Shown one piece after another: positions 2,922-25,759 of a stretch of DNA of 64,000 bases. Where the stretch lies: the NCBI GenBank assembly GCA_947504205.1, contig CANNGL010000001.1:186001-250000 (forward strand), in the 5' to 3' direction. Position 1 is the stretch's first letter, and every line of letters starts with the position of its first letter. Both the position numbers and the translations under genes were made by a program. This DNA is from an uncultured Litoreibacter sp. (GTDB lineage: Bacteria > Pseudomonadota > Alphaproteobacteria > Rhodobacterales > Rhodobacteraceae). The notes below the pieces were generated by a model. It did not search any database and was not told the origin of the DNA. It saw nothing but the letters and a program-made list of their open reading frames with translations.

Positions 2922-2964
2922 TAGCCGCAAACGCCGGGATTTCCCACAAAGAGGAGTGGTAAGC

Positions 2965-3939: not shown

Positions 3940-3947
3940 GCGCTTAC

Positions 3948-5404: not shown

Positions 5405-5424
5405 CAATTCGGTTGCGCGAATTG
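5405..5424. promoter_or_regulatory. Inverted repeat CAATTCG-N6-CGAATTG upstream of a membrane protein gene
   Basis: Perfect 7-base arms separated by six bases, 31 bases before the start of the downstream membrane protein and within the space shared with the divergent AraC-type regulator. A candidate operator. AraC proteins more often bind direct repeats, so a different regulator is possible. Confidence 0.3.
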
Positions 5425-5455
5425 AAATGATATAAAGACAAACGGAGCAGTAATA

Positions 5456-6112: not shown

Positions 6113-6891
6113 AAGCTGGCGTCTTTGAGCAGCACTTCTGTTGGCAGTCTTTGACCAGACAGCCAACAGCGGATCGTCCGCACGAACAGAGCCTCATCCT
6201 CAGCGCACCACGCATGGCCTAATCCGGCAACTATACCGGCTTCGCAGTTGGGCATGTGCGCCTCAAATATCTCCAGAGAGTTCAGGATCGTCGCGTGTTC
6301 TTTCTCTCCTGCCAACACGAGTGTGGGGATGCGGATGTCTGGAAGAGTGGCGCGTATGTCGAAGTCAACGACGAGACGGGCGATGGTGCGCAATGTGGCA
6401 GGGCTGACATTCGGCCTTCCATCAGGGTCTAAGCATATACTTGTATCCTTCAGACCCATCGACTTGCCCGATTTTTCGTAAAACCATGCGAAGCGCGTCA
6501 ACGGCGACATAAGATAAAGCATCAACTTCATAAGTCGGGGATTTGGCATGTCGCCGGCGTGACACCCGCTTAGACAGGCACGGTCAACCAGATGCGGATG
6601 GCGGATCATGAATGTCAGCCCGACATAAGCTCCAAAGGATAACCCAACCAGATCGACCGGCTCGCCGCCCAGTTCCCGCTCGACCAATTCCGCCAAATCA
6701 TCTGCGGCTTGCTCAAGGGTGCTAAGCATGCGGTGGATGCTGCCTCCGTGACCGGGCAAGTCGGGAAAAATAGCATTGATTTCGGGAAGTTGATCAACTG
6801 CGCTAAACCACATTCGACTGGTGAAACTGCCGGCGTGGAGAAACAGCACCGGCAGATTGTCAGATCTGCCACGCGTTACAAAATGCAGCAT
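6109..6891 (-). CDS. Alpha/beta-fold hydrolase
   Basis: A 260-residue cytoplasmic alpha/beta hydrolase. The oxyanion region HAGSF follows the first strand, the nucleophile elbow is GLSFGA (serine near residue 84), and the C-terminal histidine is in GLGHAW; an acid after the strand TLVLAGEKE would complete the triad. The sequence resembles the esterase/lactonase group (PcaD or MhpC-like), with PDLPGHGGS after strand four. Its end overlaps the convergent membrane protein gene. No pathway partner is evident, so the substrate is open. Confidence 0.82.
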   Translation of the reverse strand: MLHFVTRGRSDNLPVLFLHAGSFTSRMWFSAVDQLPEINAIFPDLPGHGGSIHRMLSTLEQAADDLAELVERELGGEPVDLVGLSFGAYVGLTFMIRHPHLVDRACLSGCHAGDMPNPRLMKLMLYLMSPLTRFAWFYEKSGKSMGLKDTSICLDPDGRPNVSPATLRTIARLVVDFDIRATLPDIRIPTLVLAGEKEHATILNSLEIFEAHMPNCEAGIVAGLGHAWCAEDEALFVRTIRCWLSGQRLPTEVLLKDASF

Positions 6892-6923
6892 GTCATGTCC
6901 TTTAAGGATTTGGATTTGCGGAA

Positions 6924-6958
6924 TGGTCTGCCCAGTGTTTTCACATCAGGGCAGACCA
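6924..6958 (-). terminator. Ten-base-stem hairpin between the mipA-like and hydrolase genes
   Basis: Perfect inverted repeat TGGTCTGCCC / GGGCAGACCA with a 15-base loop, about 20 bases past the stop of the MipA-like gene and before the hydrolase start. No long T-run follows on the minus strand, so it may be a weak or factor-dependent terminator or an mRNA end-protecting hairpin. Confidence 0.45.
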
Positions 6959-6978
6959 AGGACGGCTCTGACGGAGGG

Positions 6979-7716
6979 TCAGAATTGGTACACGAGGGCG
7001 ATAGCGGCGGCTGCTACGCCGCCGTTTTCAACCAGCGGACTATCTGAATATGACCCGCCGAAATGTTCGTAGGCGAGTGTGCCGATCAAAGCTGAATTCG
7101 CTGTCACCGGGATGGTTGCCGATAGCTGAATGTTCGGGCTTATCGTTGAGCCCGGTGAATAGGCACCTCTCAGAGAGTTTGCCTCTGCGGCGGACACACC
7201 GACAAGATGCGCATTCAGATCGCCATCGCGATACCGGAGACCTAGTGATGCGTCAATTCTGGCCGATTGGGCGAAGAAGGCTTTTGTGAGCTGTACTTGT
7301 GCCTCATAGCCATCATGCGTTGAGGAGACGTCGTGAAGAAATGACGCCTCAGCGCTGATATCGTTGCCAAAGTCACGTCGAACAAAGAAACCAGCTTCGA
7401 TTGCCGTGTCACGATCCAGACCGGCAAAAAGCGCCGAATCCGGGAAGTCAGGGTCGAAACGCGGAGCAACTCGCAGGGTGAACTCATAAGTGTCGCTGCT
7501 CACTGCTTTGTATGACAACCCACCGAAGCCAATCGTCAACCTTTCCGTCTCGTACTCAAGGTTTACGCCTATGCCGAGATTAGTATCATCTCCTTGGTAG
7601 ACTTCGCTCTCTACACCGGCCCCAAGACCGATGCTCCAACGTCCTTCGGCTTGAGCGCTGACTGCACAACACACCGAAACGCAAGCCAGGACGGCTTGAG
7701 TATTTCTGCTACTCAT
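6979..7716 (-). CDS. MipA/OmpV-family outer-membrane protein
   Basis: A 245-residue beta-barrel protein with a signal peptide (basic start, then ACVSVCCAVSAQA, cleavage probably before EGRW). The mature part shows alternating amphipathic strands, the family start WSIGLGAGVESEVYQGDD, and a C-terminal strand ending in YQF, the terminal phenylalanine recognised by the BAM machinery. The start chosen has GGAAAG just upstream; the open frame extends further but without a signal peptide. OmpV/MipA members are barrels with roles from murein enzyme scaffolding to porin-like function. It follows a class D beta-lactamase by 49 bases, so a shared transcript is likely and a cell-wall or antibiotic link is possible. 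Confidence 0.8.
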   Translation of the reverse strand: MSSRNTQAVLACVSVCCAVSAQAEGRWSIGLGAGVESEVYQGDDTNLGIGVNLEYETERLTIGFGGLSYKAVSSDTYEFTLRVAPRFDPDFPDSALFAGLDRDTAIEAGFFVRRDFGNDISAEASFLHDVSSTHDGYEAQVQLTKAFFAQSARIDASLGLRYRDGDLNAHLVGVSAAEANSLRGAYSPGSTISPNIQLSATIPVTANSALIGTLAYEHFGGSYSDSPLVENGGVAAAAIALVYQF

Positions 7717-7765
7717 CTGCTTTCCATTTCTTATCTGAAGGGATTTCCCAAAGCGCTGGTCAGCG

Positions 7766-8590
7766 CTATTGTGATGCACTTTGTGGCAATGCGCCAACCT
7801 CAACGAGGACACGCCGGGCTGCGGCTTCGCGTTTTCGACCATCCGAACGGCGTCGAATGTCGAGATTGAAGGCAAAGACGTAAATCTCGACAGAGGGTGC
7901 TTGTTGCTCGACCCATCCGACATACCAGCCGATATCCGGATCATCGCCGCGCAAGCCCCAGCCCGTTTTGGCATATAGAGTCCAACCCGCGCCCGTGTCT
8001 GCCTGCATTATGTCTTTGCCCTGCGCCAGTGTTTCGGACGACAAGGGGAGCTGGTTCAAAGCCAGCCGTTCAAGGAAATCGATTTGCTCCATTGCGGATA
8101 TTTTTAATGGGCCTTTCAGCCAGTATGTCGTCAGGTTCGCTGCATTCCCGATGTCTTTGTTCCCATAATCAAGCTTGCCAATCCAACTGGCCATTTGAGA
8201 ATGACCGGCATGCATTGCGATGTCTTGGAACACCCAGACCGCTGACTTTTGAAACGCACTCTTAAGCGTGTGATCCGCATTCCACGCTGCCATCGAGCGG
8301 GTCTTCCCATCCCATGCAAAAACCGTCTCTGGGGAAGCGATATCGGTTTCCAATGCGATGAACGTATGGGGAATTTTTGATGTTGAAGCGGGAATAAACG
8401 GTTTTTCCGCGCGATCTGGATTGCTGATCCAAACCTGCCCATCGCTCATGCGCTTTACAGCGATAGTCGATGCGCTGAGATCGACGCCGGAGTCCCAAAT
8501 CGCAGCCGATACATCAATGGGCGCAGCCAACGTGTTTGCTGGCACCGCCAGCGCCAAGCATATTGCCGTAACTTTCAGATTTGCCTGCAT
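7766..8590 (-). CDS. Class D (OXA-type) serine beta-lactamase
   Basis: A 274-residue periplasmic protein with a signal peptide (cleavage near NTLA-AP). All class D signature boxes are present: S69-x-x-K72 in PASTSK (nucleophile and carbamylated lysine), S116-A-V118, Y142-G-N144, W157 in YWLKGPLKIS (the tryptophan that stabilises the carbamate) and K208-T-G210. The start is fixed by AGGA six bases upstream and the signal peptide; a longer open frame to 9007 runs into another gene. It hydrolyses beta-lactams by acyl-enzyme formation. It may be an intrinsic chromosomal enzyme, since no transposon or integron sign flanks it. A gene for the MipA-like barrel follows. Confidence 0.92.
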   Translation of the reverse strand: MQANLKVTAICLALAVPANTLAAPIDVSAAIWDSGVDLSASTIAVKRMSDGQVWISNPDRAEKPFIPASTSKIPHTFIALETDIASPETVFAWDGKTRSMAAWNADHTLKSAFQKSAVWVFQDIAMHAGHSQMASWIGKLDYGNKDIGNAANLTTYWLKGPLKISAMEQIDFLERLALNQLPLSSETLAQGKDIMQADTGAGWTLYAKTGWGLRGDDPDIGWYVGWVEQQAPSVEIYVFAFNLDIRRRSDGRKREAAARRVLVEVGALPQSASQ

Positions 8591-8759
8591 TTTAAGTCCT
8601 TTGAATTTCGTATTTGCCAAGCCGAGGTTGCCCGATGTCTCGCGGCAACTCGTCTGCCCTCGGAGTAATCTGAAACGCCGGTCCGGTCTTCCGATCCGTT
8701 CGGCGCGGACTCGAAAAGTCCCGACATATTGGCGCGGACAAATTCTAAAGACCTTAACC

Positions 8760-8794
8760 ATAAAAAATAACAAATTGGAGCAACATGTGCTCCA
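8760..8794 (-). terminator. Rho-independent terminator of the flavoprotein gene
   Basis: On the minus strand, about 40 bases after the TcuA-like stop, a 7-base stem TGGAGCA / TGCTCCA with a 5-base loop is followed by AATTTGTTATTTTTT. The T-rich tail fits intrinsic termination and separates this gene from the beta-lactamase promoter region (8591-8759), in which I see no clear consensus promoter. Confidence 0.6.
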
Positions 8795-8834
8795 TCTACA
8801 ATGCTCAACGCCACCATTCTTGGGGCAACCGGAC

Positions 8835-10310
8835 TTACCGATGGCTTCGTGCAGCTCCGTTGCCTGCCAACCGACCAAATACTGCGCCGGATGTGAGACC
8901 TGATCCGCCAGGATAGCCGTTGAAAAACACACCTCCCACCAGTTCACCGCAGGCATAAAGTCCGGGTATCGCTGCGTTCTCGTTATTCTGAACCGCGCCA
9001 GTGTCATCTACCTTCAGGCCACCATAGGTGAATGTGATCCCGCCGGTCACCGGATAAGCACGGAAGGGACCTTGGTCTAATCTCTGCGCCCAGTTCGTTT
9101 TGTTCAACGGTAGTCCTTGCGTTCCCTTGCCATCCAGAACTGTCGGATCGAATGTCGAGGACGTGTCAACAGCGGCATTAAAGGCCAAAAGTGTCTTTTC
9201 TGCTGCCGCATGGTCAACGCCATCAAGCATTGGGATCAGCGCCTGAAGTGTGTCTGCTTCGACGTAATGGGCGTCGTGGAAATGGTATTCGCCATAAAGT
9301 AACTCAAGCACTTTTGCGTCGAATATTTGCCACGCAAAATGCCCAGGCTGTTCCATGATCGCGGCCCCGAACTGAGCATAGGTGTAGTTGCGGAAATTTA
9401 TGCCTTCGTCGACGAAGCGCTCGCCGTTCGCGTTCAACATGACGCCCAAGAAATAGCAGATTTTTCGGTAGTTCTTTCGTTCAGCCGGCCCCAGATCGAG
9501 ATTGCCATAGTCGGCCATGTGGAGATCCATCGGTGTCGCATGACACCCCGCATAAAAACCGTAGTTTTGAGCGCCAAGGGCTGAGGCCATCACCAACCCG
9601 TCGCCAGTATTGTGCGGCGTGCCACGCACCTTGGCTTTGTCCCACTCCGAGCCGATATGCTGTTTGCGCAGTTCCGAATTGGCCTCAAACCCACCACAGG
9701 CCAGAATGACGGCGTCCGCACGAATGCTTTCCCCAGTGCTGGTGACAACTCCCGTGACCTCACCAGCCTCTGTAATTAGTTCGGTCACTGCGCACTTGTA
9801 ACGGATTTCGCCGCCCAAGCGTTTGAAGGCGGCAAGTTCCTGGTCAAAGAGCCCAACGCCTTCATGCTCCGCGGCCAATGTAAGGCCGCCCCAAAACACG
9901 TGACGGCCATTCTTCTCAAAGCTTTGACGGGAATAGATCGGTTCAAATTTGACCTCGTGGGACGATAGCCACTTCAAGGTCTCATAGCTTTTGGAGATCA
10001 GCGTTTCCTGCTCAACACTCAAGGGGCGCCCGCCGTTAAAACCCAGCAGATCTGCGGTGAATTTTTCCACCGTGTAGCTTCCGAATTCCGTGTTGGACAA
10101 CCGTGGATCGTTGGCGTTGCGCATCAAAGGCAATAGATCTTCACCAGATGTATATGCAAATCGCATGGCACCTGCCGTATACTTCGTGTTGCCGCCCGCG
10201 AGATCTTTGCCCGCTTTTTCCAGCATCAATACATCGGCGCCGTTTTCCAACGCGGCGATCCCGGCACAAAGTGCAGCGTTTCCAGATCCTGCGATTATCA
10301 CTTTTGTCAT
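8835..10310 (-). CDS. FAD-dependent dehydrogenase, TcuA (tricarballylate dehydrogenase)/flavocytochrome-c fumarate reductase family
   Basis: A 491-residue soluble flavoprotein. An N-terminal FAD-binding Rossmann motif (GSGNAALCAGIAAL, then E of LMLEKA) is followed by the GGNTKYTAGAMRFAY loop typical of TcuA. A substrate-binding domain and the C-terminal FAD loop YACGELVGGVFFNGYPGGSG come later. These enzymes oxidise or reduce dicarboxylic or tricarboxylic acids next to a carboxylate. The ATG was preferred to an in-frame TTG 12 bases upstream because it directly precedes the first strand. No TcuB electron-transfer partner or TcuC transporter is adjacent, so the electron acceptor and exact substrate are uncertain. 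Confidence 0.8.
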   Translation of the reverse strand: MTKVIIAGSGNAALCAGIAALENGADVLMLEKAGKDLAGGNTKYTAGAMRFAYTSGEDLLPLMRNANDPRLSNTEFGSYTVEKFTADLLGFNGGRPLSVEQETLISKSYETLKWLSSHEVKFEPIYSRQSFEKNGRHVFWGGLTLAAEHEGVGLFDQELAAFKRLGGEIRYKCAVTELITEAGEVTGVVTSTGESIRADAVILACGGFEANSELRKQHIGSEWDKAKVRGTPHNTGDGLVMASALGAQNYGFYAGCHATPMDLHMADYGNLDLGPAERKNYRKICYFLGVMLNANGERFVDEGINFRNYTYAQFGAAIMEQPGHFAWQIFDAKVLELLYGEYHFHDAHYVEADTLQALIPMLDGVDHAAAEKTLLAFNAAVDTSSTFDPTVLDGKGTQGLPLNKTNWAQRLDQGPFRAYPVTGGITFTYGGLKVDDTGAVQNNENAAIPGLYACGELVGGVFFNGYPGGSGLTSGAVFGRLAGNGAARSHR

Positions 10311-10653
10311 GGGGTGATCCAAACATTTGCATTGGTTGTCGGTAGCTACCTAGGGTGTGAGGGCCGTCCATTTCCAAACGACACCGCAGCGAATTCTAAT
10401 GTATACTGTTGTATGCAATTCCGTTTGACCGTCAACAGTGATCGCTTCCAGACAACAGTGGAAGGGACGATACATTTCGGGAGGCTATGAGAAAGAGCGC
10501 GGAAAAATCGGATGTGCCGGCTCTCCGCAGAGAAACACTTTCGGAGGTATACCCCTATCGACAGTTTCAGATTTCGTTTGCCAGCGTCGCTCTCCGTTCA
10601 TAGGTTCTCTTTTACAAAACTGTTACAAAGCAGAGTTTCTGGGAGGAATAAGT
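10311..10653. other. Long intergenic control region, no convincing gene
   Basis: 343 bases between the divergent TcuA-like gene and the phosphonate-type binding protein gene. It holds the spaced TGTATRC repeats described separately. A 38-codon open frame at 10487-10603 follows a GGGAGG only two bases upstream, with no recognisable product. The strong GGGAGGA of the binding-protein gene lies at the right end. The rest probably contains promoters for both directions; I could not assign -35/-10 boxes with confidence. Confidence 0.6.
10400..10416. promoter_or_regulatory. Tandem TGTATAC / TGTATGC repeats 10 bases apart
   Basis: TGTATAC at 10400-10406 and TGTATGC at 10410-10416 lie on the same face of the helix, one turn apart, about 240 bases upstream of the transporter operon and 90 bases upstream of the divergent flavoprotein gene. 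TGTATAC is close to the core of operators bound by FadR/VanR-type GntR regulators, but no such regulator gene is adjacent here. A candidate operator only. Confidence 0.3.
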
Positions 10654-11679
10654 ATGATGAATTTGAAATCGTTGTTGGGGGTGTCGGCTTTCGCGCTGAT
10701 GACTGCGACAGGTGCGGCGCAGGCTGACAAGCTGACGTTCTATTGTTCGGCGCAAGAGGATTGGTGTCAGTTGATGGCCAATTCATTCCAGGATGCGACA
10801 GGCATTGATGTCGCGATGACGCGGAAATCATCTGGCGAGACCTTTGCGCAAATCAAAGCCGAAAGCTCCAATCCGAAAGGGGATGTCTGGTGGGGTGGAA
10901 CGGGTGATCCGCACTTGCAGGCCGCCGAGGAAGGTCTAACGGCCGAATATATTTCCCCGATGCGCGATCAGCTGCATCCGTGGGCTATCGCGCAAGCTGA
11001 AAGTGCTGGCAACAAAACCATCGGAATCTACTCAGGTGCGCTTGGATACGGCTACAACACTGATCTGCTTGCGGCTAACAATCTGCCCGAGCCGACATCG
11101 TGGGAGGATCTGACCAAGCCCGAATATAAGGGCCATGTGCAGATGGCGAACCCGAACTCGTCCGGGACAGCCTACACCACACTGGCGACGATGATGCAGC
11201 TTTTTGGTGAAGACGACGGCTTTGAGTTCATGAAGAAGCTGCACAAGAACATCAACCAATACACCAAGTCCGGTTCAGCCCCGATCAAGGCTGCGGGTCG
11301 TGGTGAAAACACCATTGGTATCGTCTTTATGCACGACGCGGTGAAACAAGCCGTGTCTGGCTTCCCAGTGAAAGTTGTCGCGCCTGCGGAAGGCACAGGC
11401 TACGAGATCGGATCGATGTCGATTATCAACGGTGCGCGCAACATGGACAGCGCAAAGAAGTTCTACGATTGGGCGCTGAGCGCTGAGGCGCAAAACCTCG
11501 CGCTGCAAGTGAATGCGTTCCAAGTTCCCTCGAATACGGGTGCAGAAACTTCACCATCGGCTCCGGACATGTCGTCGATCAAACTCATTGACTACGACTT
11601 CAAGAAATACGGCTCATCCGATGAGCGGAAACGCCTCTTGAAGAAATGGGATGACGAGGTCTCAACGCTGCCACAGTAA
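10654..11679 (+). CDS. ABC transporter periplasmic binding protein (family 1, iron/thiamine/aminophosphonate type)
   Basis: A 341-residue secreted protein with a signal peptide (ATGAAQA cleavage before DKLTFYC) and the layout of the SBP_bac family that includes Fe(III), thiamine and 2-aminoethylphosphonate receptors. WWGGTGDPHL near the middle of the first lobe and GIYSGALGYGYN are typical. GGGAGGA lies six bases before the ATG, and a second ATG follows at once. It heads an operon with a fused permease, an ATPase and TmpA/TmpB-like enzymes. The ligand is therefore inferred to be an aminophosphonate such as trimethylammonio-ethylphosphonate, as in AepX-type receptors, rather than iron. Confidence 0.85.
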   Translation: MMNLKSLLGVSAFALMTATGAAQADKLTFYCSAQEDWCQLMANSFQDATGIDVAMTRKSSGETFAQIKAESSNPKGDVWWGGTGDPHLQAAEEGLTAEYISPMRDQLHPWAIAQAESAGNKTIGIYSGALGYGYNTDLLAANNLPEPTSWEDLTKPEYKGHVQMANPNSSGTAYTTLATMMQLFGEDDGFEFMKKLHKNINQYTKSGSAPIKAAGRGENTIGIVFMHDAVKQAVSGFPVKVVAPAEGTGYEIGSMSIINGARNMDSAKKFYDWALSAEAQNLALQVNAFQVPSNTGAETSPSAPDMSSIKLIDYDFKKYGSSDERKRLLKKWDDEVSTLPQ

Positions 11680-11682
11680 GAC

Positions 11683-13896
11683 GTGCGCACACTGACATCT
11701 GAACGTACGACCCATCCGGTTCTGATCTTCTGGATCATCGCCGGGTGGGTCGGATTTTTCATACTGCCGTGGTATGGAATCGAAGAGTTTTTCTCTTTCG
11801 AGTGGCTTGTTGACGGCTATCCGTTCGACGAGGATTATGCCCCAGCAGGTTTCTTGATCGCACAAGGCGAAAAGCTTTGGTTGGCTCCGATGATATTGGC
11901 GTTGGTGGCGCCTTTGGCGGCTCTCGGTCGTCTGAAAACAGACCCGCTTTATGCCAAAATTCTGATCGGAGCAGGCGCGCTTGGCTTTGGCTGGATGATC
12001 TTGCAAGGGTTTGCGATCGGCATTCGCGGTTGGAACTTTGAATGGGCCGCTGCGCTTTATGGTGATCTTGGCGACCGACAATTTGGGATGGGCTATGGTG
12101 CCCTGATTTGTGCATCGGCATTCCTGTTCATCTTCACTCAAGGCATCGCAGCGCGGGGCGCGATCAACGGAGACGTCTTCGTCGTCAGCTCCATTGGAGG
12201 TGTGATCGTTATCGTCTCTGCCTTCGTGTTCTTCCCAATTGCCAAGATGCTGACCGCTGCATTTATCACCGAGGACGGTGGCTATTCGCTTGGCGTTTTT
12301 GCGTCGAAATTTTTTGATGACAGGTTGTGGGGATTGGGCTGCTTGTCTGGCGGGCGGTGTGGTGTTGCGCTGAATTCTCTATTCCTCGCAATTCTGGTCG
12401 GGTTCATCACGACCGCGCTCGGTCTTGTCTTTGCGCTTGTCGTGACGCGCTCTGGCTTCCGGTACAAAAAGCTTCTGCGCGCTCTGACCGTCCTGCCGAT
12501 AATCACGCCCCCATTTGTGATTGGTCTGGCGCTTATTCTGTTGTTCGGACTGTCGGGGTCGGTCACGGTCTTTTTTGCCGATGCTTTCGGCATTCAGCCC
12601 ACCCGCTGGCTTTACGGGCTTCCCGGCATCCTGATCGCACAGACACTGGCCTTCACCCCGATTGCTTTCCTCGTTTTGATTGGTGTGGTCGAAGGTGTTT
12701 CCCCCTCGATGGAGGAGGCGGCGCAGACGTTGCGTGCCTCGAAATGGCAGGTCTTTAAGACCGTCTCGCTTCCGCTTATGCGTCCCGGTCTGGCGAATGC
12801 GTTTCTGCTTGGGTTCATCGAGAGCATGGCCGATTTTGGTAATCCGTTGGTCCTGGGCGGTAATTTCGACGTTTTGTCGACCGAGATTTTCTTTGCCATT
12901 GTTGGGGCGCAGTACGACCAAGGTAAGGCGGCGGTGCTGGCCATGGTTCTGCTTTGCTTCACATTGGCGGCCTTTTATGCGCAGCGCTTCTGGTTGGGCA
13001 AAAAGAGCTATACGACCGTCTCGGGCAAGGGTGACAGCGGCGTGCATCCCCACATGCCCCGCGCCTTGTCGATCCCGGTTCTGGCCCTTGCAATGCTCTG
13101 GGCCGCGTTCACTGGCATTGTCTACCTCATGATTTTCTACGGTTCGGTGGTCGAGCTTTGGGGCGTGAACAACACGCTGACCTTCAAACATTATGTCACC
13201 GCATTCTCCTTCCGGCTTGAGGAGGGCGGTATCCGCTGGTCGGGTGCGGCTTGGGACAGCTTCTGGACCACTTTGAAAATCGCCGCGATCGCCGCGCCGT
13301 TGACGGCGGTGGTGGGCCTCATCACGGCATATTTGCTGACCCGTCAGACATTTGCGGGCAAGAACGCGTTTGAATTTGGCACTATGCTTAGCTTTGCCAT
13401 TCCGGGCACTGTCATCGGCGTGAGCTATATCCTTGCCTTCAACGTGCCGCCCATCGAGATCACCGGCACGGGGATTATCCTCGTGGTTAGCTTTATCTTC
13501 CGCAACATGCCTGTCGGCGTGCGCGCAGGGATCGCCAGCATGTCTCAGTTGGACAAATCGCTCGACGAATCTTCGCTCACCCTCGGGGCAAACTCCTGGC
13601 AAACCTTCCGCCGCATCATCTTGCCGCTTCTGCGTCCCGCCATTCTCGCGGCGTTGGTCTACAGTTTCGTGCGGGCCATGACAGCGATTTCTGCGGTGAT
13701 CTTCCTTGTCAGTGCCGAATACGACATGGCCACGAGCTACATCATCGGTCGTGTCGAGAATAACGACTATGGCCTGGCAATTGCCTACTCGACCACACTG
13801 ATCTTTGTGATGCTCAGTGTCGTTCTAACGATGCAGCTTATCATCGGACGAACGAAGATAGGGCGGCGTATGTCGCAATCGCGGACCAATGTGTAA
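11683..13896 (+). CDS. ABC transporter fused double permease (FbpB/AepW type)
   Basis: A 737-residue inner-membrane protein with two MetI-like permease halves, the arrangement seen in Fbp-type iron and AepXVW phosphonate importers. Each half carries an EAA coupling loop: EEAAQTLRASKWQVFK in the first (near residue 346) and DESSLTLGANSWQTFR in the second (near 628). An N-terminal extension of about 180 residues adds several more spans. Translation starts at GTG three bases after the binding-protein stop, with a weak ribosome site, which suggests coupling. It forms the channel for the binding protein and the ATPase encoded next. Confidence 0.88.
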   Translation: MRTLTSERTTHPVLIFWIIAGWVGFFILPWYGIEEFFSFEWLVDGYPFDEDYAPAGFLIAQGEKLWLAPMILALVAPLAALGRLKTDPLYAKILIGAGALGFGWMILQGFAIGIRGWNFEWAAALYGDLGDRQFGMGYGALICASAFLFIFTQGIAARGAINGDVFVVSSIGGVIVIVSAFVFFPIAKMLTAAFITEDGGYSLGVFASKFFDDRLWGLGCLSGGRCGVALNSLFLAILVGFITTALGLVFALVVTRSGFRYKKLLRALTVLPIITPPFVIGLALILLFGLSGSVTVFFADAFGIQPTRWLYGLPGILIAQTLAFTPIAFLVLIGVVEGVSPSMEEAAQTLRASKWQVFKTVSLPLMRPGLANAFLLGFIESMADFGNPLVLGGNFDVLSTEIFFAIVGAQYDQGKAAVLAMVLLCFTLAAFYAQRFWLGKKSYTTVSGKGDSGVHPHMPRALSIPVLALAMLWAAFTGIVYLMIFYGSVVELWGVNNTLTFKHYVTAFSFRLEEGGIRWSGAAWDSFWTTLKIAAIAAPLTAVVGLITAYLLTRQTFAGKNAFEFGTMLSFAIPGTVIGVSYILAFNVPPIEITGTGIILVVSFIFRNMPVGVRAGIASMSQLDKSLDESSLTLGANSWQTFRRIILPLLRPAILAALVYSFVRAMTAISAVIFLVSAEYDMATSYIIGRVENNDYGLAIAYSTTLIFVMLSVVLTMQLIIGRTKIGRRMSQSRTNV

Positions 13897-13905
13897 GGAC
13901 AATAA

Positions 13906-14970
13906 ATGAGCATCAGTTCAAAAGCCGCCCCGGTCAGCTTCAGAAATGTGACCAAGATATATGGCAAGGATGTTGTCGCGGTGGACGGTATCAACCTGGA
14001 AATCGAAGCAGGCAAACTTGTTACATTGCTCGGACCCTCGGGGTGCGGAAAGACGACAACTTTGCGCATGATCGCAGGGCTAGAGATGGCGACCGAAGGC
14101 GCGATCCTTATTGGCGACCGGGACGTGACACTTTTGCCAGCCACGGATCGCGACGTGTCGATGGTCTTTCAAAGTTACGCGCTCTTCCCGCACATGACGG
14201 TGATGGAAAATGTGTCCTACGGCCTTGGGTTTTCCGGCTTTGATAAGTCCGAGACAAAAGATCGCGCAGCACAAGGTCTCGATCTGGTGGGTCTCAAAGG
14301 CTACGGGGACCGCCTGCCGTCAGAGTTGTCGGGTGGCCAGCAGCAAAGGGTTGCGGTGGCCCGTGCGTTGGTGCTTGAACCGCAAGTGCTTCTCTTTGAC
14401 GAGCCGCTTTCCAACCTTGATGCCAAGCTGCGTCGTCAGGTCCGTGAAGACATACGCGACATTCAGCAAAACCTTGGGCTGACAGTTGTCTACGTCACAC
14501 ATGATCAGGAAGAGGCGCTCGCCGTCTCCGATGAGATTGTTGTCATGCGCAATGCGGGAATTGCGCAGATTGGCACGCCGCGCGCGCTTTATGATGAGCC
14601 GGCAGATCACTTTGTGGCGGATTTCATCGGCGAGGCGAATATCATTCCCTGCGAGATCAAATCGGTATCCAAAGGTCAGGCGACGATTGATATCAGCGGG
14701 TTTTCACACAAGCTGCCTGCGCGCGATATGGAGCTTGGTCCAGCTTCGCTGGCCGTGCGCCCAACCCGGCTGGTGCTCGGCGTCAAGACCGGCATGGCCA
14801 TGGTGGTGAAGAAGGCAACGTATGTTGGCAGCCGTATGGAATACACGCTTGATGCCGGGTTTGGAGAGGTATTTGCCACCAGCGAAAACGTCGATACGCC
14901 GCATAATGTCGATACAAAAGTTACCGTTGGACTCGACAACATTGGTCCTGTTCTGCTGCCCGCTGTTTGA
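13906..14970 (+). CDS. ABC transporter ATPase (PotA/FbpC type) with TOBE domain
   Basis: A 354-residue ATP-binding subunit. It has Walker A GPSGCGKTTT, Q-loop region VFQSYALFPH, signature LSGGQQQRVAVARAL, Walker B VLLFDEPLSNLD and the switch histidine in YVTHDQ. A C-terminal TOBE domain (about 260-350) is expected to sense substrate or regulate transport. AAGGA precedes the ATG closely, and the gene lies 9 bases after the permease. It energises uptake by the two preceding gene products. A 182-base gap separates it from the TmpA-like gene, so the oxygenases may have an additional promoter. Confidence 0.92.
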   Translation: MSISSKAAPVSFRNVTKIYGKDVVAVDGINLEIEAGKLVTLLGPSGCGKTTTLRMIAGLEMATEGAILIGDRDVTLLPATDRDVSMVFQSYALFPHMTVMENVSYGLGFSGFDKSETKDRAAQGLDLVGLKGYGDRLPSELSGGQQQRVAVARALVLEPQVLLFDEPLSNLDAKLRRQVREDIRDIQQNLGLTVVYVTHDQEEALAVSDEIVVMRNAGIAQIGTPRALYDEPADHFVADFIGEANIIPCEIKSVSKGQATIDISGFSHKLPARDMELGPASLAVRPTRLVLGVKTGMAMVVKKATYVGSRMEYTLDAGFGEVFATSENVDTPHNVDTKVTVGLDNIGPVLLPAV

Positions 14971-15083
14971 GCTGCACAATCATACATTTGAGTGAACGCC
15001 CTGACCTCGGGGCCGGCCTGATCGTGATGAACGAGCGTGGTTCGCGTTTGCTGCGAGCGTGGCGCAGTCCATCTTACGATTGA

Positions 15084-16885
<1,802 letters not shown>

Positions 16886-16903
16886 TCCGTTTATGCCTTC
16901 GGG

Positions 16904-17851
16904 TTACGACACATCTAGCCGGTTGATTACTTCATCATGCGCCGCTCTCAAGCATGACATGAACTCCAGTGTCTTGCGGTCCGGCTCCGGCTTTTTGCGT
17001 GTAATGGCGGCGAATGTCGTGCTGTATCCAGTATGGTTGGGGGCGATGGGCCGCACGGTGCCTTTGCGAAGAAAAGTTTCGGCCACGTGGTCCGCCAAAA
17101 ACCCCAGATACCGCCCGGATTGGATGAGAAGGGACAAGGCCTCTTCCTCTTGAACTTGGGCCGCGCGTTTGATGCCCAACTGTCTGCCAGCTTTCATGTT
17201 GGGCGAATTGAAGGCGTATCCTGCGTATTTTTGCGTACCAAGTTTCAAATCGGCGATCGACAGCTCCTCTGGTGCATCGAACAATGCATGTCCTTCACCA
17301 CAATAAAGCGTCATATGCTCCAAATAGAGTGGCGTATAGCTAAGCAGACTGGACTGTCGATGAATGGGCACGACTGCCACGTCCATCGTGCCGTCTGTGA
17401 CGCGGGCTTCCAGAGTACTTGGTGGCGCAAGGGCAATGTCCAGCGCCACATCAGGCGCCACCATATCGAAGTGGCGGATCGCATCGTGAATGCGGGCGTC
17501 GGGATTGGTCGAGGACTGATCAAATAGGCCAATCCGCAATGTCCCGGTCAGCTTTGAGTGAATGTCGTCGATCTCCGATTGAAACCCATCGATGGATGAC
17601 ATCAGCTTGTGCGCGGCCTCGAGAACTTTTTCACCCTCTGCGGTCAGAGCAAAGCCAGATGGCCCGCGATTGCACAGCTTGAGGCCGATCCGCAGCTCCA
17701 AGTCGGAAACATGCTTTGAGATTGTCGAGCGACCGATATCGAGCTCGAGCTCAGAGGCCGCAAACCCACCGCATTCCGTCACAGTCATGAATATTCGCAA
17801 CAAGCGAATATCGACATTACTGAGGCTTTGAATGAGTGCCCGTTTGGCCAT
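16904..17851 (-). CDS. LysR-family transcriptional regulator of the tmp/BCCT locus
   Basis: A 315-residue LysR protein: winged helix-turn-helix in residues 10-70 (RLLRIFMTVTECGGF, then GRSTISKHVSDLE), and a periplasmic-binding-protein-like effector domain from about 95 to 300. It converges on tmpB and diverges from the BCCT carrier gene across 122 bases that hold a direct repeat. A plausible activator of both the tmp genes and the carrier in response to a phosphonate or betaine. LysR genes commonly accompany aminophosphonate-degradation genes; that general pattern is the basis for the role. Confidence 0.85.
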   Translation of the reverse strand: MAKRALIQSLSNVDIRLLRIFMTVTECGGFAASELELDIGRSTISKHVSDLELRIGLKLCNRGPSGFALTAEGEKVLEAAHKLMSSIDGFQSEIDDIHSKLTGTLRIGLFDQSSTNPDARIHDAIRHFDMVAPDVALDIALAPPSTLEARVTDGTMDVAVVPIHRQSSLLSYTPLYLEHMTLYCGEGHALFDAPEELSIADLKLGTQKYAGYAFNSPNMKAGRQLGIKRAAQVQEEEALSLLIQSGRYLGFLADHVAETFLRKGTVRPIAPNHTGYSTTFAAITRKKPEPDRKTLEFMSCLRAAHDEVINRLDVS

Positions 17852-17852
17852 C

Positions 17853-17892
17853 TAAAGTTTCCTTTTTCTGCAACTATAGAGTGTAAAGTTTC
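17853..17892. promoter_or_regulatory. Direct repeat TAAAGTTTC x2, 31 bases apart, in LysR/BCCT promoter region
   Basis: Identical 9-mers at 17853-17861 and 17884-17892, start-to-start spacing 31 bases (three helical turns), in the space between the divergent LysR and BCCT genes. The first copy abuts the LysR start codon. LysR tetramers contact two sites about three turns apart, so these are candidate recognition and activation sites. Confidence 0.4.
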
Positions 17893-17973
17893 AGGTTAAC
17901 AAACAAGATATACGCCTTATTGTGGGCTCCATAATGATCGCGCGAGACGCGCGGCGAAAACAGGGAGAACATA

Positions 17974-19653
17974 ATGTCATTGAAACCACCCTTATCGGAT
18001 TTGCCGATACCAACTGCCGATAGCGGCTTTTACCGCGGCTTCAGTGTGAACGTGACAGTCGTCAGTAAGATCATCATCAGTCTATTGGTGGTGTGGTGTA
18101 TTGTTTGGCCCACACAGGCTGGCACGGTTCTTGGCAATTGGAACACGGCCATCCTGGCGCAGTTCGCCGCGTGGTACATTTGGGTTGTGACGGCGTTTGT
18201 CCTCGTCTGCATAGGATTGGCGATCTGGCCTACGGCGGGTCGGCTTAATCTCGGGGCAGATGGCGAGAAGCCAGAATTCTCGAACTTTTCATGGTTCTCG
18301 ATGATGTTTGGCGCCGGGATCGGCGTTGGTATGCTGACCTGGGCCGTGGCTGAGCCGGTGGCACACTTCAAAAACAATCCCTCGGTTATTCAGGGCGTCA
18401 CAACAGCGCTCGATGCGGACAACGTGCGCACCGCCTATGTCTGGTCCTATCTGCATTGGGGTTTGGGCGCGTGGGCCTGCTATGCGATTGCGGGTCTTGC
18501 GTTGGCGTTCTTCAGCTATCGCCGCGGATTGCCGCTTACCATTCGGTCATCACTGACACCTTTGTTCGGCAAGGCTCTGTCTGGAACGCTGGGACATATC
18601 ATCGATATCGTTGCAGTTGTGGCGACCATTCTCGGTGTGGCTCAGACGCTTGGTTTCGGGGTTGAGCAATTCGTTGCAGGCCTGACGCGGATCGGCATCG
18701 GAGGCCTCGCACTGGAAGACGGTTCGGCCACCACGTTGGGCATTGTTGTGGCGCTGCTTGTTATCATGGGCGCATCGACATTGTCGGCCCTGTCGGGTGT
18801 GGGCAAAGGCATCAAGTGGCTTTCCAACATCAACATGGTTCTATCCATCGTTCTGCTGGGCTTCTTCATCATCTTCGGAGCGACTTGGTTTGGTGCCTCG
18901 GCATTCTTTATCGGCATCTGGGACTATCTCATCGCCCTGCCGTGGTTGAGCTTCAACGTCTATAGTTCGGACGGTGTCGAAGGATCCGAAGCCTTCCTGC
19001 TGACGCAATGGCAGGGGTGGTGGCCTGTGTTCTACTGGGCTTGGTGGATTGCCTTCGCGCCCTTCGTGGGGCTGTTCCTGGCGCGTATTTCACGGGGCCG
19101 CAGTATCCGTGAGTTCGTCCTTGGGGCTATGATTGTGCCATCACTGATGTGCTTTGTCTGGTTCGCTTGGGCTGGTGGCACCGCGATTGATCTTGAGCTG
19201 AATGGCAACGCCAATGGTGTGATCCTTGACGCGGCCAATGGCGACAAGATCTTTGCGATGACCGAGTTCATGCTGGCACCAATTGCGCAGGCTCTGGCTT
19301 GGGGAATGGCGGTATTGATCGTGGTCCTTTTGATGACGTTCCTCGTGACCTCAGCCGACTCCGCGGTTCTGATCGTGAACACGATCAACGCCGCAGGTGA
19401 TGAAGGTCCAAAGGCACGTCCACACATCCTGTTTTGGGGTGCTGCTTTGGCGCTGGTGGTTGGCGGTCTGCTGATCTCTGGCGGCACGGGTGCCATTCAG
19501 ACCGCGATGGTCATCGGGGCGCTGCCATTCTCGATCGTGATGGCACTGATGTGCATCGCGCTGATCAAGGCGATCTTCAATGACGGCCGTCGCGAAGCGG
19601 CCGGGGTGGCAACCACGATTGATCCCGAAACATCGGTTATGCCCGCCGAATAA
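17974..19653 (+). CDS. BCCT-family betaine/choline/carnitine-type transporter
   Basis: A 559-residue inner-membrane carrier with about 12 helices. The glycine-rich stretch FGAGIGVGMLTW in the substrate pathway helix and the family signature WWIAFAPFVGLFLARISRGR are clear. BCCT carriers take up trimethylammonium compounds, driven by Na+ or H+. Its place beside TmpAB suggests import of glycine betaine, choline or the trimethylammonio-phosphonate itself. The C-terminal tail is short, unlike osmosensing BetP, so a nutritional role is more likely than osmoregulation. A strong terminator follows. Confidence 0.9.
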   Translation: MSLKPPLSDLPIPTADSGFYRGFSVNVTVVSKIIISLLVVWCIVWPTQAGTVLGNWNTAILAQFAAWYIWVVTAFVLVCIGLAIWPTAGRLNLGADGEKPEFSNFSWFSMMFGAGIGVGMLTWAVAEPVAHFKNNPSVIQGVTTALDADNVRTAYVWSYLHWGLGAWACYAIAGLALAFFSYRRGLPLTIRSSLTPLFGKALSGTLGHIIDIVAVVATILGVAQTLGFGVEQFVAGLTRIGIGGLALEDGSATTLGIVVALLVIMGASTLSALSGVGKGIKWLSNINMVLSIVLLGFFIIFGATWFGASAFFIGIWDYLIALPWLSFNVYSSDGVEGSEAFLLTQWQGWWPVFYWAWWIAFAPFVGLFLARISRGRSIREFVLGAMIVPSLMCFVWFAWAGGTAIDLELNGNANGVILDAANGDKIFAMTEFMLAPIAQALAWGMAVLIVVLLMTFLVTSADSAVLIVNTINAAGDEGPKARPHILFWGAALALVVGGLLISGGTGAIQTAMVIGALPFSIVMALMCIALIKAIFNDGRREAAGVATTIDPETSVMPAE

Positions 19654-19730: not shown

Positions 19731-20693
19731 CTAAAGAACTGACTTGATCCGCGCGGAATCATAATTTGCGCCACATAGCAATACTACGTTGACCTGCCCG
19801 GCATAGCGCTCGGGCGCGGCTAGAAGCGGCGCCAAGGCAAGCGCAGCAGCACCTTCGACGATCATGTTTTCGGTCCAGGCCAGAGCTCTCAATGCCGCGA
19901 TAATCTGATCCTCACCAATATGGACGACCTCGTCGATCACTTCACTTGCCAAGGGCAGGGTGACTGACCCAGGGTCGACGCCGCCCGCAACACCGTCCGC
20001 CAATGTGTCAAGATGCTCTGTCTCGACGATCTCACCGGCGGTGATGCTGGCCGCCAGCGCGGCCGTATTGACGGCACTTGCGCCGATCACGCGCGTGGTT
20101 GGTGAGAAAGCCTTCATCACGGCGCCAATCCCACTGATCAAGCCGCCGCCTCCCATTGCAATGAACAGGTTGTCGATCTGAGGCAGTTGATCGAGCATCT
20201 CCAAGCCACACGTGCCTTGCCCGGCAATCACCTCCAGATCGTTATACGGAGAGACATAGATTTGACCTTGCTCTTTTGCCAGTTGGCGGGCGTGGGCCTC
20301 CGCGATGGCCCCATCGGTTCCGTGCAGAATAATTTGTGTCCCGTAAGCTTCGATGGTGGTGCGTTTCTGCGCGACGACAGTTTCAGGCAGGGCGACCGTC
20401 AACTGGTGCCCCGTCTGCTGGGCAGCGTGCGAACTGGCGATGCCGTGGTTTCCGGTCGAGGCGGTGATAACAGCCTGATCCAAGGGGAGGGCGGTCAGCT
20501 TGGCCGTCGCTCCGCGTAGCTTGAACGACCCGGTATGTTGGAAATTTTCACATTTGTAATGCAGCTTGGTTTCTGCAGGCAGGCTTAGGCGTGAGGTCAG
20601 CATTGGCGTCAAACTGATCAACGGTGTAATCCGCCGTCGAACTGCAACCGAGCGTGCCGCACTTTGCAGGATCAGATCAGATGGTGTGCTCAT
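19731..20693 (-). CDS. eutB: PLP-dependent threonine-dehydratase-like enzyme, EutB-type
   Basis: A 320-residue fold-type II PLP enzyme. The Schiff-base lysine is K58 in QHTGSFKLRG, and the phosphate-binding glycine loop is AMGGGGLISG near residue 180. The sequence and its ATGA coupling to an ornithine-cyclodeaminase-like gene match the EutB/EutC pair of ectoine and hydroxyectoine utilisation, where EutB acts on a hydroxylated diaminobutyrate derivative. The EutD hydrolase and EutE deacylase genes expected for ectoine breakdown are not nearby. A general threonine/serine or hydroxyaspartate dehydratase role therefore stays possible. Confidence 0.72.
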   Translation of the reverse strand: MSTPSDLILQSAARSVAVRRRITPLISLTPMLTSRLSLPAETKLHYKCENFQHTGSFKLRGATAKLTALPLDQAVITASTGNHGIASSHAAQQTGHQLTVALPETVVAQKRTTIEAYGTQIILHGTDGAIAEAHARQLAKEQGQIYVSPYNDLEVIAGQGTCGLEMLDQLPQIDNLFIAMGGGGLISGIGAVMKAFSPTTRVIGASAVNTAALAASITAGEIVETEHLDTLADGVAGGVDPGSVTLPLASEVIDEVVHIGEDQIIAALRALAWTENMIVEGAAALALAPLLAAPERYAGQVNVVLLCGANYDSARIKSVL

Positions 20694-21670
20694 GTTTTGT
20701 CCTCTTCCGAGCTGTTGGCGGCAAGCACAGCGCGTATCACACTTAGTGATATAGCTGCGTCCTGCGCTGCGATGCCCGTCAGATCAGCAATGGTGATGTC
20801 GTTATCTGACGACCTGCCATGATGCACACCGGCCAAGACATCGCCCAAGACCACGACATCTGCGGCATTGATCTGACCTGCTGCGTGAGCACTTTGAAAC
20901 TCACCGTGATCCAATGATTGCTTTGCCAGATCACAGACCAGCAGGTCAGCGTTTGCGACGAGCGTTAGGTCAAGCTCTTGCTTGCCCTCCGTATCTGCTC
21001 CAATTGCTGTGATATGGGTGCCTGGGGATACCCAGTCCGCCCGGACCAACGCCGATCTGGACGGAGTTGTTGTCAGGATCACATCGGCGTCGCTCGTTGC
21101 AGCGCGCAAGTCCTCTACAGCGCGCGCGGCTATCTTTTCCGCTTGCAAGGTATCGACTGCACCTTGGGCCTTAGCACTATCCCGGGCCCAGATTGCGATA
21201 TCCAGATCAGTACCCGCCATCAAATGGACCAATGCGCGCGCCTGAAACAAGCATTGTAGTCCTGCACCGACGATCAAGACCTTAGAGAACCCCGGTCGGG
21301 CCAAGGCTTTTGTCGCCAATGCGCCACCTATCCCTGTGCGTATGTCGGTTAGCCACCCCTCATCTTTCAGCAATGCCAAGGTTTCGCCTGTTTCGGCGCT
21401 GAACACGACGTTCATGCCGTTCGAGCTTGGTAGCCCTTTGGCAGGGTTATCATAGAACCCGGTGGCGATCTTGATCACAAACCCCTCGGACCCTTCGATA
21501 TGGCCGCTTTTGACATGGCAATCGCCATTGGATGTTGGGAAACCCAGGTAGGTCACGTCCGGTGCCTGAACGCGGCTTTGCGCCTGAGCGATATAAGCGT
21601 CTCGGATCGCGTCTGTCGCGGCGGCCATGTTGAAGGCGGATTGAATGTCATCTCGGTTCAGGCTGAGCAT
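20690..21670 (-). CDS. eutC: Ornithine cyclodeaminase/mu-crystallin family protein, EutC-type
   Basis: A 326-residue NAD(P)-dependent enzyme of the OCD/mu-crystallin family. The N-terminal substrate domain contains HVKSGHIEGSEGFVIK, with lysines that bind the substrate carboxylate. The Rossmann domain opens with LIVGAGLQCLFQAR near residue 136. EutC partners EutB in (hydroxy)ectoine utilisation; other family members are ketimine or imine reductases, or DauB of the D-arginine route. The DauR-like regulator encoded across the divergent promoter makes the last comparison worth keeping. It is coupled to the EutB-like gene by ATGA. Confidence 0.72.
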   Translation of the reverse strand: MLSLNRDDIQSAFNMAAATDAIRDAYIAQAQSRVQAPDVTYLGFPTSNGDCHVKSGHIEGSEGFVIKIATGFYDNPAKGLPSSNGMNVVFSAETGETLALLKDEGWLTDIRTGIGGALATKALARPGFSKVLIVGAGLQCLFQARALVHLMAGTDLDIAIWARDSAKAQGAVDTLQAEKIAARAVEDLRAATSDADVILTTTPSRSALVRADWVSPGTHITAIGADTEGKQELDLTLVANADLLVCDLAKQSLDHGEFQSAHAAGQINAADVVVLGDVLAGVHHGRSSDNDITIADLTGIAAQDAAISLSVIRAVLAANSSEEDKT

Positions 21671-21769
21671 AGGCCCCTCACTTCTGCATTGACCGGTTGA
21701 TTGGACGCGATTATCTAAATTGGATATTCATGTCAAATTTCTGCTGATCCGCAAGCACGAGGACCCACC

Positions 21770-22915
21770 ATGCCCACATCGCCCTTTCACAGCTTTCAGG
21801 TCGAACAATTCTTGTCGGATATGGAGCATGGCGTTGTCTACAACTTCTCCGAAAGCGGCGTGCATCCCATGTCGCTGGGTGGTCTGGTCGAGTTGACCGA
21901 GATTGACATGCAAACGCTGATGGCAACCATGATCGACTACCCGCAGGTGAATGGCAAAGAGAGCCTGCGTCGCACAATTGCAGGGTTTTATCCGGGTGCT
22001 GACCCTGATGGGGTGATGATTACAGTGGGGGCCACCGAAGCAAATACCTTGGTGGTGAACACGCTGCTGGAGCCAGGCGATAATCTGATTTGCTTCCGTC
22101 CGATCTACGAACAGTTTTCGGGCAACGCTCTGAACCACGGACATGATGTGCGCTGGGTAGGTCTGATGGAGGATGAGGATTGGGCCGTGGATGCTGAGGC
22201 GTTGATGGCAGCCATTGATAGCAAAACCCGCCTCATTCATGTGGTTAACCCAAACAACCCCACGGGGCGTGTCCTGTCGCAGGCTGATCGCGCGTGCGTT
22301 GTGGCCGCTGCCCAGAAGGTTGGCGCTTGGATTGTCGCGGATGAGGTTTACGCGGGAACAGAGCGGGAAGGGGATACCGATACCGCATCCTTCTGGGGAG
22401 ACTATGATCGCGTACTGATCATCAACTCCATGAGCAAGGCCTACGGCTTGCCGGGACTGCGACTCGGCTGGCTGGTTGGACCGGTCGAGGTCATCAATGC
22501 CTGCTGGCGGCGCCACGAATATGCAGCAATTGCGGCGTCAACCTTGTCGATGGAGCTTGCAGATAAAGCTCTGGTTGAGCCTGCGCGCTCCAAGCTTAAA
22601 GAACGCGCCCGCCGTCTGATCCGTACCGGGTTCGATGTACTGACAGAAAAACTCAGCGTGCACCCGGGCGTGTTCGATGTCGTGCCCCCACAAGCGTCTG
22701 CAATGTCATTCGTACGGTTCAACCTGCCTATCGGCTCAGAGGAGTTCGCTCAGCGGTTGCTTCACGAAAAGGACGTTCTGGTCATTCCGGGCTTTCGTTT
22801 TGGCGTCGAGAACCATTTCCGCTTCAGTTCAGGTCTGCCGGAAGACCACCTGCGCGATGGGCTTGATCGCTTGAACGATTTGACGGCGGATATCTTGCAA
22901 GAGGCCGCGAAATGA
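21770..22915 (+). CDS. Class I/II aminotransferase
   Basis: A 381-residue fold-type I PLP enzyme. Visible landmarks are PNNPTG (161-166), the PLP-contacting D191-E-V-Y194, the Schiff-base lysine K223 in NSMSKAYGLPG and the arginine of LRLGW at 231. It starts 99 bases from the divergent EutC-like gene and its stop overlaps the DauR-like regulator start by ATGA. It probably transfers the amino group from an amino acid generated by, or feeding, the EutBC-like enzymes. Substrate unknown. Confidence 0.85.
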   Translation: MPTSPFHSFQVEQFLSDMEHGVVYNFSESGVHPMSLGGLVELTEIDMQTLMATMIDYPQVNGKESLRRTIAGFYPGADPDGVMITVGATEANTLVVNTLLEPGDNLICFRPIYEQFSGNALNHGHDVRWVGLMEDEDWAVDAEALMAAIDSKTRLIHVVNPNNPTGRVLSQADRACVVAAAQKVGAWIVADEVYAGTEREGDTDTASFWGDYDRVLIINSMSKAYGLPGLRLGWLVGPVEVINACWRRHEYAAIAASTLSMELADKALVEPARSKLKERARRLIRTGFDVLTEKLSVHPGVFDVVPPQASAMSFVRFNLPIGSEEFAQRLLHEKDVLVIPGFRFGVENHFRFSSGLPEDHLRDGLDRLNDLTADILQEAAK

Positions 22916-23547
22916 AGGGCCAGGGCGCACTTCTGAGCAACGCGAAGGCGACGGCCGATGCAACGGCTGCGCTGTTTGGGAGCCGCGTTGAAGTGGTGGT
23001 CCACGATCTGAAGTCCGAGACAATAGCCCATATCTCTCAGCCATATTCCAACAGGAAACCCGGCGATCCATCGAACATGCAGGAAATCGACCTCGGGCCC
23101 CACGACACCGTTATCGGCCCTTACGAGAAGGTGAATTGGGATGGAAGTTTGATCCGCTCCATCTCGGTTGTGATCCGAGATGAATCCGGGGAGGCGCGGT
23201 TCGTGCTTTGTGTGAACCATGACCAGAGTGACATTCAGCAATTGCAGATGTTAGCGCGCGCATTCGCGGCGGCGTCCCCCGCGACCGGGCAACCCGAGAT
23301 GTTGTTTCGACAAGATTGGCACGAGAAGCTCAACCTCTTTGTCAGCGAATGGTGTGCTGCCCGCGCTCAGCGTGCAGATGCGCTGGACCGCGAGACACGT
23401 CGAGCATTGATCATGGCGCTTGATATGTCTGGTGCGCTGGCCGAACGCAATGCGGCCTCATATATCGCACGTATGCTTAGGGTCAGCCGTGCGACAATCT
23501 ACAATGACCTGAAGGCAGGGGTCGCGACTGCAGATCTTCTGAAATAG
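22912..23547 (+). CDS. YheO/DauR-type transcriptional regulator (PAS-like domain plus HTH)
   Basis: A 211-residue protein with an N-terminal YheO-like PAS domain (about 10-115: VVVHDLKSETIAHIS, then NWDGSLIRSISVVIRD) and a C-terminal helix-turn-helix (about 165-205: ALAERNAASYIARML, then SRATIYNDLK). This is the architecture of DauR, which represses D-arginine catabolism. Here it sits between an aminotransferase and hydantoinase genes and probably senses an amino-acid-like ligand for the surrounding operon. Confidence 0.78.
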   Translation: MKGQGALLSNAKATADATAALFGSRVEVVVHDLKSETIAHISQPYSNRKPGDPSNMQEIDLGPHDTVIGPYEKVNWDGSLIRSISVVIRDESGEARFVLCVNHDQSDIQQLQMLARAFAAASPATGQPEMLFRQDWHEKLNLFVSEWCAARAQRADALDRETRRALIMALDMSGALAERNAASYIARMLRVSRATIYNDLKAGVATADLLK

Positions 23548-23675
23548 AGGAAGACCCTGACTGAATAGGCTGGCGATCAAAAATAGTTTGGCTTGAGCGC
23601 TTAATCAGTTTGATCTTTTTGCCGCGCTCCGGCTCATTAGCACTGGAAGTAGAAGCAAGCGGACCGGAGTCGCTC

Positions 23676-25757: not shown

Positions 25758-25759
25758 GC

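Follow-up and report, generated by a model that had tools for sequence, protein, structure and literature searches.

A TmpA-TmpB gene pair between a predicted AfuABC-type importer and a LysR-BCCT gene pair in an uncultured Litoreibacter species

The stretch of DNA analysed here (the window) comprises 64,000 nucleotides (nt) of contig CANNGL010000001.1 from an uncultured Litoreibacter sp. (assembly GCA_947504205.1, Rhodobacteraceae) with a genome of 3.79 Mb. Seven open reading frames (ORFs) between positions 10654 and 19653 include tmpA and tmpB, the genes for cleavage of 2-(trimethylammonio)ethylphosphonate. A preliminary description had read all seven as one complete candidate locus for uptake and use of this phosphonate. 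The seven ORFs are present at the coordinates and on the strands given in that description, and the features of the locus are as follows.

10654-11679, plus strand: periplasmic receptor of a predicted AfuABC-type (phosphorylated-compound) ABC importer; AfuA 4r72 is the best match in the PDB (327 bits), and the model TIGR03261 was failed
11683-13896, plus strand: fused two-unit permease of the predicted AfuABC-type importer; TIGR03262, 272 bits (cut-off 593)
13906-14970, plus strand: ATPase of the predicted AfuABC-type importer; TIGR03265, 350 bits (cut-off 458); NF008513, 355 bits (cut-off 496)
14971-15152: intergenic gap of 182 nt separating tmpA from the importer; plus strand without a terminator-like site
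15153-16295, plus strand: tmpA, 2-trimethylaminoethylphosphonate hydroxylase (Fe(II)/2-oxoglutarate); NF049936, 576 bits (cut-off 400); 6npb, 500 bits
16292-16885, plus strand: tmpB, HD-domain di-iron oxygenase cleaving the C-P bond; NF049941, 354 bits (cut-off 300); 6npa, 346 bits; eight ligand and loop residues
16904-17851, minus strand: LysR regulator; PF00126 and PF03466; divergent from the BCCT gene
17974-19653, plus strand: BCCT-family carrier; PF02028, 489 bits

The importer genes are separated by 3 nt (receptor and permease) and 9 nt (permease and ATPase), and the LysR and BCCT genes diverge across a spacer of 122 nt. The ATG of tmpA lies at 15153; the program-made ORF list begins the gene at a TTG at 15084. 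The stop codon of tmpA and the start codon of tmpB overlap in an ATGA at 16292-16295, in agreement with the translational coupling proposed earlier.

Both enzymes were assigned by curated models. The TmpA protein passed its equivalog model and stayed under the cut-off of the BBOX model (404 bits, cut-off 414.75), which supports the assignment to TmpA made in the preliminary description. The TmpB protein likewise passed its curated model, and fell below the cut-offs for Phn-HD (197 bits, cut-off 215) and for the hydroxymethylphosphonate PhnZ (140 bits, cut-off 300). The best solved structures are 6npb for TmpA and 6npa for TmpB. All eight residues of the PhnZ/TmpB ligand set noted before are retained in TmpB (Y30, E33, H40, H64, D65, H86, H109 and D166), Y30 and E33 making up the YxxE loop. 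This loop and the HD-domain ligand motif (H...HD...H...H...D) are described in a review (PMC8177086). The window TmpA-TmpB is thus confirmed as a genuine pair of already-known enzymes. It shares with TmpA/TmpB of Leisingera caerulea (PDB 6npb-6npd, 6npa) the curated models, the best structure match, the overlapping gene pair, the di-iron ligands and the YxxE loop. The Leisingera enzymes hydroxylate the substrate to the (R)-1-hydroxy compound and cleave it to glycine betaine and phosphate (PMC10574752), and TmpAB is named as the sole degradation pathway described for trimethylammonioethylphosphonate (PMC10590968). From orthology to them we infer the same activity in the window organism, where TmpA would hydroxylate 2-(trimethylammonio)ethylphosphonate and TmpB would then split the C-P bond to give glycine betaine and phosphate. 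The window TmpAB is a further example of a phosphonate pathway already known. The same genome encodes elsewhere PhnJ of the C-P lyase (473 bits) and a homologue (78%) of a dimethylglycine-dehydrogenase-like protein, the latter named from reading its sequence. It is therefore plausible that the organism uses other phosphonates and demethylates some betaine.

TmpB scores above its cut-off were found in 51 of 394 genomes of the same family, and in 15 of 385 genomes sampled from the class, own family included. The tmpB neighbourhoods were compared in 80 other loci. The family contributed 53 (50 of them over the TmpB cut-off and 3 under it), the genus 5, and other families of the class 18 (11 over the cut-off and 7 under it); the remaining 4 were fetched out of 29 plasmid records showing a TmpB-like match, 7 of which match at 60-80% identity. 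The tmpA gene lies immediately upstream of tmpB in 76 of the 80. A divergent LysR gene within 600 bp upstream of tmpA is found in 34 of them, whereas the window has the ABC importer upstream. Neither the window importer nor the window BCCT occurs in the fetched stretch of any of the 80 loci; low-identity importer-like matches were seen for the permease (29% in L077, 32% in L051) and for receptor and permease together (33% and 30% in L273). A count of the membrane-spanning neighbours of tmpAB across the family loci gave unrelated ones, and an MFS-like protein recurs upstream in several.

The importer had been described as a dedicated, AepXVW-like one, and this part of the description was not borne out. 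AepXVW membership is rejected, as the three subunits all failed the AepXVW-type models TIGR03261 (239 bits, cut-off 393), TIGR03262 (272 bits, cut-off 593) and TIGR03265 (350 bits, cut-off 458). The nearest solved structure of the receptor is AfuA, at 49.5% identity, and receptor residues S60, T172, H227, D228 and E251 correspond to AfuA S37, T150, H205, D206 and E229. AfuA binds glucose-6-phosphate, with S37 and T150 contacting the phosphate and H205, D206 and E229 the sugar, and the latter three served as a motif for AfuA homologues (Sit and colleagues, PMC4546632). The five residues are kept in 80 of 80 receptor orthologues, the best 80 of 457 relatives that a single scan of named genomes produced. 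At these positions T, T, F, R and D occur in three AepX-type receptors from the genus; these three pass TIGR03261 and share 33% identity with the window receptor. The window receptor falls in a clade of 16 rows with support 100/99 in a midpoint-rooted tree; the branches leading to AfuA and AepX are very long, and the tree is informative for the window's clade alone.

By sequence, then, the window importer is of AfuABC type and not AepXVW. With AfuABC of Actinobacillus pleuropneumoniae (PDB 4r72-4r75; hexose and heptose phosphates) it has in common the receptor identity, the five ligand residues and the grouping of receptor, permease and ATPase genes; it differs in half of the receptor sequence, in adjoining tmpAB and in that its ligand is a prediction. 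What it shares with the 2-aminoethylphosphonate importer AepXVW is the wide receptor family PF13343 and a fused permease, and it differs from it in receptor identity, in the three failed models and in the residues of the ligand site. Its substrate is most likely a phosphorylated metabolite (a hexose phosphate or related sugar phosphate, or another phosphomonoester), which would be taken up for general phosphorus or carbon scavenging.

FbpA-like proteins are often annotated as iron or thiamine importers. An importer for iron or thiamine was weighed here and appears highly improbable: the ATPase has the ferric ABC model NF008513 as its top model and the receptor weakly matches a thiamine subfamily model (40 bits, cut-off 93), but both scores are below cut-off, and among close receptors, those whose ligands have been reported bind glucose-6-phosphate (PMC4546632) or pyridoxal phosphate (PMC8427247). 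Many relatives also lie near phosphatase, Na/Pi-cotransporter-like and PhnD-type genes. Taken together, this points to a phosphorylated compound as the predicted receptor ligand rather than to iron or thiamine.

The neighbourhoods of the importer were examined at the 80 orthologous loci with flanks of up to 10 kb. The permease gene lies beside the receptor gene in 79 of the 80 (the exception is L133), and the ATPase gene in 78 (all except L133 and L152). An inositol-monophosphatase-like gene is present in 47 of the 80 stretches; further neighbours found by clustering, with one representative of each cluster identified by models, are a PhnD-type receptor (22), a DeoR-type regulator (22), a histidine phosphatase (19) and a Na/Pi-cotransporter-like protein (14). 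These phosphatase, PhnD-type, DeoR and Na/Pi neighbours point to phosphorylated metabolites and phosphorus supply. At the thresholds used, complete tmpAB, the window LysR and the window BCCT were found in the fetched flanks of none of the 80 importer loci, an absence that is weak at loci on short contigs (e.g. L045, L054, L072, L133 and L153); one stretch (L158, genome G223) ends inside tmpA. Around the closest importer (G412, 95%), tmpAB is absent from a 20-kb stretch (L245), which means within about 10 kb of the importer.

The LysR and BCCT genes were assigned to their families as described before. The carrier scored 400 bits on the glycine betaine BCCT model NF047988, below the cut-off of 650. 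Its best PDB matches are a BCCT carrier of unnamed substrate, a trimethylamine transporter and a choline transporter. At 18 BCCT loci, fetched out of 53 genomes with a strong BCCT match, a window-type LysR gene (63-76% identity) diverges from the BCCT gene in four (L227, L228, L229 and L241) and is absent in the other 14, and tmpAB is absent in all 18. The window LysR was also compared with one representative LysR of the other tmpAB loci; with 29% identity over 120 amino acids, it is ruled out as the usual tmpAB LysR. The LysR gene probably belongs to the BCCT gene rather than to tmpAB, and the two look like a third, independent module separate from tmpAB, contrary to their earlier inclusion in one system with it.

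Taken as a whole, the locus is probably a genuine TmpAB pair that lies downstream of a separate AfuABC-type importer and upstream of an independent LysR-BCCT pair, in a juxtaposition of modules rather than one locus. The arrangement of importer, tmpAB, LysR and BCCT was found solely in the window among the loci compared. The complete uptake-and-use locus of the preliminary description is unsupported, because the importer occurs without tmpAB and LysR-BCCT occurs without tmpAB; importer and tmpAB adjoin each other at none of the 80 tmpB loci and none of the 80 importer loci, and in one genome they lie about 10 kb apart.

Co-occurrence was counted in the genus and in the family. In 21 genomes of the genus, some of them incomplete, the importer (at least 85% identity) was found in 11 and TmpB over cut-off in 6; both are present in 3, with 3.1 expected (Fisher p 1.0). 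In the two such genomes besides the window's, importer and TmpB genes lie about 340 kb apart (G410) or on different contigs (G408). The genus takes in Litoreibacter meonggei (G399, locus L159). At family level, the BCCT (E up to 1e-150) matches 53 of 394 genomes, 10 of them with TmpB (6.9 expected, p 0.19) and 7 with the importer (5.1 expected, p 0.32).

Several observations weigh against a reading as separate modules. Importer genes and tmpAB share one direction, and the gap separating them shows no terminator-like site. In the wider stretch of G223 (L247), a window-type importer (85%) lies about 10 kb from tmpAB, together with PhnD-type, DeoR and phosphatase genes. In the family, importer orthologues (at least 74% identity, a threshold chosen in this analysis) occur in 38 of 394 genomes and TmpB in 51, and both occur in 12 against 4.9 expected (2.4-fold; odds ratio 3.75, p 0.0013) by statistics that ignore kinship and habitat; without the window genome, 11 genomes remain against 4.7 expected (p 0.003). 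Of the 12 genomes, leaving aside the window's and G223, nine have importer and TmpB genes on separate contigs, and in G055 the two are separated by 2.5 Mb. This excess is a sign of some link or of a habitat in common, and our confidence in separate modules is slightly lowered by its persistence without the window genome. Ligand residues retained in a receptor of about 50% identity are, moreover, no proof of the ligand. P5PA shares 54% identity with AfuA, yet its ligand is pyridoxal phosphate, and the published threshold for P5PA membership is at least 65% identity to P5PA (PMC8427247); its structure 6wce is the third-best PDB chain for the window receptor (271 bits against 327 for AfuA).

Some of these points fit one dedicated locus, in which the importer brings in the phosphonate, TmpAB cleaves it, LysR controls the genes and the BCCT carrier handles the betaine. 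Such a locus would account for the order and direction of importer, tmpA and tmpB across a 182-nt gap that shows no terminator-like site, for the family co-occurrence and the proximity in G223, and for the match of the receptor to PF13343, a Pfam domain also assigned to AepX (PMC8316502). We consider it unlikely, given that the trio and BCCT are missing from the other tmpB loci and tmpAB from the importer loci, that the AepXVW models failed while the AfuA ligand residues are retained, and that LysR-BCCT is found alone, with genus co-occurrence at chance and BCCT-TmpB co-occurrence not over chance. Co-option is a second alternative: tmpAB would have landed behind a broad-range organophosphate importer that also accepts the phosphonate, and co-transcription would have been selected with an importer not built for it. 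The importer-tmpAB adjacency and the family-wide association agree with this, as do the other transporters beside tmpAB elsewhere (TRAP in G160, AepXVW in G750), as if local importers had been recruited. The window receptor is nevertheless the same as its relatives at the five AfuA ligand positions, and AfuA is described as selective (PMC4546632), so that co-option seems unlikely as well.

The transporters at tmpAB loci were compared in other genomes. At L273 (genome G750), positions 121-14762 hold a phosphonate island on the minus strand, except for a LysR-like ORF at 8680-9624 (by sequence reading). It encodes AepXVW, phosphonoacetaldehyde dehydrogenase, PhnA, PhnW, TmpB, TmpA, a GcvT/SoxA-like protein and a kinase-like protein; AepXVW passes all three models (525, 779 and 520 bits), and TmpAB, PhnW, PhnA and the dehydrogenase are over their cut-offs too. 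Like the window, this AepXVW, TmpAB and PhnWAY island combines a wide-family importer with tmpA and tmpB; it differs in that its importer passes the AepXVW models and in having PhnW, PhnA, phosphonoacetaldehyde dehydrogenase and the GcvT/SoxA-like protein. At L058 (genome G160), the TRAP transporter genes DctP, DctQ and DctM (1001-5886, minus strand) run on the tmpA strand and stop 164 nt short of that gene. As the importers near tmpAB differ (the window type in G223, AepXVW in G750, TRAP in G160), no single transporter accompanies tmpAB in the set. Of these importers, the AepXVW of G750 is the strongest candidate for a link to TmpAB, and the TRAP system of G160 is also among the best candidates.

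No uptake system for trimethylammonioethylphosphonate was found in the literature searched, which did not extend to supplements or the original 2019 paper; there, TmpAB is dealt with at the enzyme level, and tmpB-like genes serve as markers of abundance (PMC8177086, PMC10574752 and PMC10590968 among the sources). It is conceivable, if unlikely, that the AfuABC-type importer was recruited for the quaternary phosphonate. In that case the 16-row receptor clade would recognise a choline-like tail joined to a phosph(on)ate head, and tmpAB would have been captured behind the importer. If true, the importer would be the first system linked to uptake of the compound in the literature searched, and tmpAB would plug into whichever local importer is available (AfuABC in the window, TRAP in G160, AepXVW in G750). 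The useful points are the correction of the importer to AfuABC type by sequence and the finding that the tmpAB loci compared have no fixed transporter.

No terminator-like site was detected in the window at 14971-15152, behind the ATPase gene; a scan behind this gene also detected none in 78 relatives, hence little weight attaches to this. Read-through from the importer into tmpA is possible, and tmpAB may be co-transcribed with the importer. Some importer genes have a possible Pho-box-like element (at least 10 of 14 matches) roughly 36-46 bp ahead of them: among 80 upstream regions, window included, 5 have it in the slice from -70 to -24 and 7 in the overlapping slice from -47 to -1, and each of ten other slices has 0 or 1. 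The window's own site is weak, with 9 of 14 matches, a score reached by 141 of 200 shuffles. By reading, TTGCCA, a spacer, a CTAACCT-like and then a TGTCATAAAACTGTTAC-like pattern at 10579-10653 are loosely common upstream of several receptor genes in the window's clade.

Additional genes adjoin tmpAB in some genomes. On a Labrenzia plasmid (L182, 9585-10430), tmpB overlaps at its end with a gene of phosphodiesterase type (PF01663), and a similar-looking ORF (by sequence reading) directly follows tmpB in G666 (L269); the PF01663-type gene is possibly a third pathway gene. A second TmpA-like oxygenase, 33-34% identical to the window TmpA, adjoins tmpAB in G604 and G696 (L274 and L275), where the neighbours are carnitine-degradation-like by sequence reading.

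Other genes flank the window locus on both sides. A class D beta-lactamase homologue lies at 7766-8593 on the minus strand, with scores below both cut-offs (OXA-1090 family 296 bits, cut-off 400; class D 241 bits, cut-off 250). It is followed at 8835-10322, on the minus strand, by a gene for an FAD-dependent dehydrogenase, which reached 546 bits on the model for the tricarballylate dehydrogenase TcuA and thereby passed it (cut-off 369). Downstream, 19731-27469 holds threonine-dehydratase/EutB-like, ornithine-cyclodeaminase/EutC-like and aminotransferase genes and then a hydantoinase/caprolactamase-like pair, none of them over an equivalog cut-off, and represents a putative amino-compound degradation cluster.

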